From Methanomicrobiales archaeon (GTDB taxonomy: Archaea > Halobacteriota > Methanomicrobia > Methanomicrobiales > Methanospirillaceae), in contig JAPKXQ010000073.1 of NCBI GenBank assembly GCA_026394765.1, positions 1-59,117 of the forward strand: 59,117 nucleotides of DNA, read 5' to 3'. Made by a program: the position numbers and the translations under genes. Numbering within the stretch: position 1 is the first letter of the stretch; each line of letters begins with the position of its first letter. Below the pieces are notes generated by a model. It had not been told where the DNA came from. It saw only the letters and a list, made by a program, of their open reading frames with translations, and did no database searches. Shown here piece after piece: positions 6,646 through 12,063 of the stretch.

Positions 6646-6924
6646 TCATATCTCATATCCCTCTTCAAGGGCGTTCTGGAGGAAGGAATTGCCGTTTGCG
6701 ATCATCGCATCAAACTCCTCCTTGGTGTAGCAGAGTGGTTCAATAGGGAGGGCTGTCATCTCCAGGATTGCTGTGGTCCGTATATGGAACCGCTCTGGGA
6801 AGTCCCCGATGATGATGAGGTCTATGTCGCTTCCTTCATGAACATCACCCCGGGCATACGACCCATGGAGGATGATCCGTGAGACATTCCTGGAAGTGCG
6901 GATGAGTGCAGCCAAGTCTTGCAC
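6646..6924 (-). CDS. MNT-type minimal nucleotidyltransferase (antitoxin of HEPN/MNT module 1)
   Basis: ILHGSYARGDVHEGSDIDLIII (GS-x9-DxD motif); GTG start at 6924 just after the HEPN stop is likelier than the track start at 6987. Confidence 0.85.
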   Translation of the reverse strand: MQDLAALIRTSRNVSRIILHGSYARGDVHEGSDIDLIIIGDFPERFHIRTTAILEMTALPIEPLCYTKEEFDAMIANGNSFLQNALEEGYEI

Positions 6925-6929
6925 GTGCT

Positions 6930-7337
6930 CTAGCCCCTGATTGCAGCCTTGGTTCGCACGAGTATTGACTCTGCAATCTTCAGACACTCTTCGGCATCCT
7001 CCTCTTCATAGTACTCTCCGGGTGTCAACTCACCTGCGATACTGTCCGGGTAACGGGATGCAAAGTATGCACCGTCCAACTTTTTTGTCCCCTTCCTGAC
7101 CTCAAGAAGGGACGGAGCAAACTTCCCTGCTTCCAGGACAAGTTCAAAGATCGAATGAATTAGGACTCTTCTCCTTCCCTGTGCAATGAGGACCGCTTTC
7201 AATGCTTTTTCTGAACACTGCTGCGCCTGAAAACATGCCCATTCATATGACCCCGTTGAAGCGCTATTCCTGCCCGCTACGAAATCTCGCTCGGCTTGAA
7301 CGAGCCACCGCTCAGCTTCACGCCTGTTCTGGTCCAC
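6930..7337 (-). CDS. HEPN domain protein (toxin of HEPN/MNT module 1)
   Basis: ERWLVQAERDFVAG...SYEWACFQAQQCSEKALKAVLIAQGRRRVLIHSIFEL typical HEPN with R-x4-H-like motif; directly upstream of MNT. Confidence 0.88.
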   Translation of the reverse strand: MDQNRREAERWLVQAERDFVAGRNSASTGSYEWACFQAQQCSEKALKAVLIAQGRRRVLIHSIFELVLEAGKFAPSLLEVRKGTKKLDGAYFASRYPDSIAGELTPGEYYEEEDAEECLKIAESILVRTKAAIRG

Positions 7338-11228: not shown

Positions 11229-11528
11229 TCACCCCCTTCGGAACATTACCACTCCCGATTCCTGTGCTCTCCTCGCGAGGGTCGTATCCATCTCCTCCTG
11301 TGTGTAGGGAAAGACATCCACCGCTAATCCCACCTCCTCGAAATAGGGGGAGTACTCCTCAATTCGACGTATGAATCGGACATGGCTCTCTGCAAGTTCC
11401 ACGATCATTACGTCCACATCACTCCCAGGGACATCGAGGTCTTCTGCAAAAGACCCAAAGAGGATGACCTCGAGAACCTCTTCCCGGGTGACAAGGTGCA
11501 GAACCGCGGTCTTGAGGTTCTCCCTCAC
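11229..11528 (-). CDS. MNT-type minimal nucleotidyltransferase (antitoxin of HEPN/MNT module 2)
   Basis: VILFGSFAEDLDVPGSDVDVMIVEL (GS-x9-DxD); GTG start at 11526-11528 directly abuts the MITE target duplication. Confidence 0.85.
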   Translation of the reverse strand: MRENLKTAVLHLVTREEVLEVILFGSFAEDLDVPGSDVDVMIVELAESHVRFIRRIEEYSPYFEEVGLAVDVFPYTQEEMDTTLARRAQESGVVMFRRG

Positions 11529-11532
11529 TAGA

Positions 11533-11663
11533 GGGGCTGTTTCACAAACCCCAAATTAACAAAAAGGGGCGATTTACATCGACATCAAATTAATTAAATA
11601 ATTAATCTTTACTGATTTATTTATGTGATAATGTTAACAAAAAAATATTTGTGAAACAGCCCC
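11533..11663. mobile_element. 131-bp MITE-like element with perfect 16-bp TIRs and TAGA target-site duplication
   Basis: GGGGCTGTTTCACAAA at 11533-11548 and its exact reverse complement TTTGTGAAACAGCCCC at 11648-11663; TAGA at 11529-11532 and 11664-11667; AT-rich interior, no ORF. Confidence 0.9.
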
Positions 11664-11673
11664 TAGATCCCTG

Positions 11674-12063
11674 TCAATCCAGGAAACTGTTACAGAACCG
11701 TAGGATCGCCTTTGCACTGCTGATAGCACCATCTGCGTCCTCGCTATCGAAGTGGTCACCAGGGAGTCCCTTCAGCAAAGCCATTTGGATAGCGCGCTGG
11801 GATGTAATACCTGTCAAGAGACCGCGCTTGTTTCATGAGGTCTAGGGGAACTGGCTGGTATTCCTGATAGGCCCTGAGGAGATCGGTGATGGCATGACCC
11901 CATGCAATAACCCCTCTCGCGTGCAGCACTGCTTTGAGACCCTTCTCGGCGGCCTGTTGGGCGATGAAGCACGCCCATTCCGGATACCCCTGGTCCCTCG
12001 CCACTGTCGCCATCTTGAGATCACGCAGGCCTGACGGATCCAATCCTTACTCCGTTCAGCCAT
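11674..12063 (-). pseudogene. HEPN domain protein broken by two frameshifts (module 2)
   Basis: MAERSKDWIRQA (frame of 12063) joins LRDLKMATVARDQGYPEWACFIAQQAAEKGLKAVLHARG...YYIPARYPNGFAEGTP (frame of 12043), which joins GDHFDSEDADGAISSAKAILRFCNSFLD* in another frame. Confidence 0.85.

Follow-up and report, generated by a model that had tools for sequence, protein, structure and literature searches.

A 131-bp MITE within the MNT gene of an apparently decaying HEPN-MNT module in a Methanomicrobiales archaeon

Archaea commonly contain MITEs whose likeness to a partner insertion sequence is confined to the terminal repeats (PMC3852290). Among the entries in Table 4 of that paper are a 136-bp MITE of M. 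hungatei (6 copies, IR 15, DR 4), with the partner printed as ISHmu1 and its family given as '?', and an IS1182-associated MITE of Methanosarcina acetivorans, which is 160 bp long and has ISMac2 as its partner (14 copies, IR 26, DR 4). In HEPN-MNT pairs, HEPN is the toxin (PMC3710099, PMC7641770). As PMC3710099 presents these dyads, MNT is almost always the 5' gene, and some PF05168-type HEPN proteins lack the canonical RNase motif. In the HEPN-NT pairs of Sulfolobus islandicus, a degenerate, truncated HEPN has been judged non-functional in a pair that is still recognisable (PMC3718332).

Here a MITE and a HEPN-MNT pair are found together. The locus lies in the window, meaning the whole stretch of 59,117 nucleotides that was analysed, which belongs to a 1.83-Mb draft genome in 107 contigs that is about 79% complete and is the only one of its genus in the comparison set. 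That the host is an archaeon is borne out by nearby genes, which match the archaeal aIF2-gamma equivalog (TIGR03680) and TIGR04154, the archaeal model for oligosaccharyl transferase.

The repeat, its copies and its larger relatives

The element and its parts are as follows.

11533-11663, unstranded: non-autonomous MITE of 131 bp, AT-rich, with perfect TIRs and no ORF, one of five genome copies with exact 4-bp TSDs
11533-11548, plus strand: left TIR, GGGGCTGTTTCACAAA, perfect over 16 bp
11648-11663, minus strand: right TIR; together with the 5 bases inward of it, the same sequence as one end of a larger relic on contig C28
11529-11532, unstranded: left copy of the TSD, TAGA
11664-11667, unstranded: right copy of the TSD, TAGA
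11589-11606, unstranded: AT palindrome inside the MITE, ATTAATTA-AA-TAATTAAT, with 8-bp arms and a core kept in most copies

The two TIRs agree at 16 of 16 bp and the TAGA duplication is exactly 4 bp long; the inverted-repeat arms come out at 17 nt, the 17th pair being a chance pairing of the A and T of the flanking TSD. The GC content of the element is 0.30, against 0.55 in its flanks, and both its length and the absence of an ORF of its own agree with what is required of a MITE (less than about 600 bp, no ORF).

Four further full-length copies (130-131 bp) are present in the same draft genome, on contigs C3, C55, C68 and C84. They are 81-86% identical to the window copy (E 1e-29 to 4e-38), and those on C55 and C68 differ from one another at only 4 positions. 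All five copies are flanked by exact 4-bp duplications, each of them different (TAGA, ACAT, GGTG, ATAT and TAAT), so that a strong target preference is absent. Five copies with different, exact TSDs are beyond chance, and the repeat is a multi-copy MITE. Of the 34 columns that make up the terminal 17-bp segments of the five copies, 1 is variable, whereas 38 of the 97 interior columns are (Fisher p = 2e-5); such conservation of the ends over the interior is expected of a family with transposase-recognised ends, and it fits present insertions of no great age. On C3, C55 and C84 the copies sit outside the adjoining long ORFs.

The preliminary description had already reported the perfect 16-bp TIRs, the TAGA on both sides, the missing ORF and the AT-rich interior with its 8-bp-arm palindrome, all as found here. 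It had also taken the element for an insertion rather than ancestral sequence, to be checked against further copies in the host genome. That view is backed by the four copies found besides the one in the window and by larger TIR-sharing elements in the genome; relatives do not carry the 131 bp as ancestral sequence, and the TIR recurs, but only inside this genome.

Beyond this genome, searches of the order (231 other genomes), of a phylum sample and of a collection of 84,980 species turned up no copy of the MITE. The exact paired-TIR pattern gave zero matches in the 84,980 species genomes and in IMG/VR, as did blastn with the MITE against plasmids, and a looser form of the pattern occurs in this genome only, among 232 of the order and 394 of the phylum. 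Single-TIR matches in two genomes (G038, G173) are without the partner end and chance-like. The MITE family, defined by its 131 bp, the TIR GGGGCTGTTTCACAAA and the 4-bp TSD, is apparently undescribed and was not found outside one archaeal lineage.

Larger elements or relics with a MITE-type end occur on contigs C28, C42 and C47, with one end each and all incomplete. The element at C28:9914 is an IS relic: its single TIR, a perfect 21-bp match to the MITE's right end, is followed by terminal sequence related across about 110 bp to the element on C42 and C47. On the latter two contigs, 98%-identical insertion-sequence ends carry the TIR GGGGCCGTTTCACAAACATTTGC, with one difference in the 16-bp end, and a C-terminal transposase-like fragment. 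Both are cut by the ends of their contigs, a frequent fate of repeated insertion sequences in draft genomes.

The 76-aa C-terminal fragment of the C42 element weakly matches Pfam DDE_Tnp_1_6 at positions 95-125 of 125 (E = 0.11), and the closest relative of the C42 peptide, a fragment in genome G002, matches the IS1182 model at positions 458-485 of 488 (E = 0.017); both matches are below curated cut-offs, though at the right place in the model. G002 is the only genome of the phylum with a related transposase fragment, which is also cut by a contig end, and a search for the fragment in named genomes confirmed none. The draft genome itself holds no IS1182 transposase above the cut-off and no assembled full-length parent IS. 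A TIR-sharing IS is likely, but not proven, to be the parent of the MITE; the possible IS1182 identity of the mobilising transposase, as read from these peptide matches, is a lead and not a result.

Two further sequences belong beside these elements. A degraded transposase-like stretch near the start of a contig (C55:250-390), with a weak N-terminal match to the IS1182 model, has no MITE TIR nearby and was judged unrelated. Another repeated element, with 98%-identical copies at the ends of contigs C50 and C62, has an end, GGGGCTGTTTCATAGACC, that resembles the MITE TIR yet is distinct.

The insertion point and the state of the module

The genes around the element, and a second pair elsewhere in the window, are these.

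11674-12063, minus strand: remnant of the HEPN (PF05168) gene, with frame changes near 12028 and near 11761 and its stop at 11676-11674
11664-11717, minus strand: 5' portion of MNT cut off by the insertion, about 18 codons long, sharing 44 nt with the 3' end of HEPN, with the probable ancestral start GTG 11717
11229-11528, minus strand: downstream MNT ORF of 99 aa, with the nucleotidyltransferase domain and an intact GS..D.D motif; first possible start GTG 11528-11526
6646-7337, minus strand: second HEPN-MNT pair, intact (HEPN 6930-7337, MNT 6646-6987, ORF overlap of 58 nt), an uninterrupted comparison locus outside the damaged module

On the minus strand HEPN is followed by MNT, the two being adjacent and co-oriented (PF05168, E 1e-20; NTP_transf_2, E 3e-8), and the MITE begins 10 nt past the HEPN stop. 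In the 99-aa ORF the NTP_transf_2 match spans residues 6-91, positions 5-89 of 93 in the profile, with GSFA..SDVDV intact. HEPN is likewise followed by MNT in ten related pairs (L052-L059, L061, L062), which come from organisms of the same family, and their MNT frame is open upstream of the HEPN stop; its GTG lies 44-50 nt before the HEPN end in nine of the ten and 56 nt before it in L053. In the window, the frame that begins at GTG 11717, 44 nt short of the HEPN end, stays open past the HEPN stop as far as the insertion site, and when the flanks are joined across one TAGA it continues unbroken beyond the MITE. The joined N-terminus, VQRRSYGSVTVSWIDRDL and then VRENLK, aligns gap-free with the relatives, for example with SVRIFWIDRDLVKERLQ in G087. 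Conservation of the GTG alone is weak evidence, since the region also codes for HEPN; the unbroken alignment and the DRDL residues past the HEPN stop weigh more. A DNA search found no positional ortholog with an empty site in a close relative.

Because the frames of the relatives run through the HEPN stop and the window frame is gap-free on both sides, the MITE is placed within the coding sequence of MNT, some 18 codons downstream of the probable start GTG 11717. By the same alignment, GTG 11528-11526 is an internal Val codon of the uninterrupted MNT frame and not its original start, and the ancestral arrangement is one of overlapping genes rather than of a 10-nt spacer. The gene structure of this HEPN-MNT clade is thereby corrected: MNT starts within HEPN, and an insertion just past the HEPN stop therefore hits the antitoxin gene itself. 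The MNT of the second, intact pair (6646-6987) weakly matches the model of the HalB anti-phage nucleotidyltransferase (E 1e-6, below the cut-off).

HEPN is damaged as well. Its homology follows one frame from ATG 12063 as far as about 12028, switches to a second until about 11761 and returns to the first for the rest, up to the stop at 11674. Consensus errors might account for these frameshifts in a draft that is 79% complete; long ORFs elsewhere in the window are intact (87% coverage), and for that reason the breaks are probably real. Neither gene of the module has an intact frame, HEPN having two frameshifts and MNT being split by the MITE. Judged from the sequence, the locus appears to be a doubly broken, decaying module that bears ordinary transposon damage and would no longer be working. 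The toxicity of this HEPN was never certain, because PF05168-type HEPNs vary in the canonical RNase motif. Loss of an antitoxin beside a working toxin should be costly, and the damage to HEPN was thus probably first or concurrent. It is probable that the loss of HEPN function preceded the damage to MNT or made it tolerable; the order cannot be read from one genome.

Mechanism and competing readings

The reading preferred here, to which a probability of about 85% is assigned, is that a 131-bp MITE mobilised in trans was inserted, at a 4-bp staggered cut, into the 5' part of MNT in an overlapping HEPN-MNT operon, with a source IS that is probably IS1182-like. The transposase of this TIR-sharing insertion sequence, supplied in trans, would bind the 16-bp ends and make the staggered cut, so that the MITE enters MNT near codon 18. 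Translation from the original start would yield an MNT stub that reads into the MITE and stops 9 further codons on. The 99-aa downstream ORF retains the whole nucleotidyltransferase domain, having lost the coupled start and the overlap with HEPN.

The downstream ORF may still have a use. Translated from GTG 11528, perhaps by way of a promoter in the AT-rich MITE, the MNT core with its domain and GSFA..SDVDV motif could act as an orphan antitoxin that protects against related HEPNs, which would be compatible with the preferred reading. Such translation is nevertheless unlikely: by eye, no ribosome-binding sequence was seen upstream of GTG 11528, and pairing of the two TIRs would give a strong hairpin ending 4 nt before that codon. 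The fuller proposal, in which the MITE made a coupled antitoxin into an orphan core whose expression depends on the MITE, and which was kept after toxin loss against related HEPN toxins, is harder still to credit. The preliminary description had gone another way, placing the element exactly between the two genes, taking GTG 11528 as the MNT start, with a normal spacer after excision, and concluding that an antitoxin had been uncoupled from its toxin. A MITE in an intergenic spacer that uncouples an intact HEPN from an intact MNT, and so shifts their expression ratio, agrees with the 10 nt between the HEPN stop and the element, which were correctly given, and with a 99-aa ORF of intact motif and full Pfam domain whose GTG comes right after the MITE. 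It is very improbable all the same, as the MNT frames of the relatives begin within HEPN and cross the insertion position. With the ten pairs and the gap-free alignment the element moves from between the genes to inside MNT, the supposed start becomes an internal codon and the spacer an overlap; nor does the uncoupling hold for a HEPN that is frameshifted twice and an MNT that is itself interrupted.

A reading that dispenses with transposition altogether makes the 131-bp repeat a structured regulatory RNA or a REP-like host repeat, and finds a point in its favour in the strong fold of the element (z -5.7 as RNA, -6.1 as DNA). This fold is driven by the TIRs, which the repeat has in common with larger elements, and exact 4-bp duplications at five of five sites, an Rfam search without a match and little covariation (both sides changed in 2 of 31 pairs) leave this reading with hardly any probability.

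Likeness to known systems

Apart from the new MITE family and the corrected gene structure, the insertion of the MITE into MNT is ordinary transposon biology. Beside an intact HEPN, an insertion of this kind would be expected to do harm, and such loci could therefore help to test which of the two genes, toxin or antitoxin, decays first.

As described in Table 4 of PMC3852290, the 136-bp MITE of M. hungatei comes nearest to the present one in size, in number of copies and in the lengths of IR and DR. A different TIR is probable for it, provided that the species is among those searched, because the paired TIR pattern occurs in no other genome of the order. The MITE of Methanosarcina acetivorans is also similar by its description there: short, ORF-less and multi-copy, with TIRs, a 4-bp duplication, a likeness to its partner at the ends only and, tentatively, the same partner family. 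It has IR 26 and ISMac2 as its partner, against a 16-bp TIR and a partner present only as a fragment in this genome.

With HEPN-MNT (HepT-MntA, type VII) modules the locus shares a PF05168 HEPN beside a minimal nucleotidyltransferase, which matches NTP_transf_2 and, weakly, the MntA model (22 bits against a curated cut-off of 60). It differs from them in its frameshifted HEPN, its split MNT and its gene order: HEPN precedes MNT here and in 10 of 10 related pairs, unlike the order that PMC3710099 gives for such dyads. The nearest parallel for its condition is found in the S. islandicus pairs, where HEPN is likewise degenerate in a pair that can still be recognised; unlike those pairs, for which the account in PMC3718332 describes no such element, this one has a MITE inside MNT.
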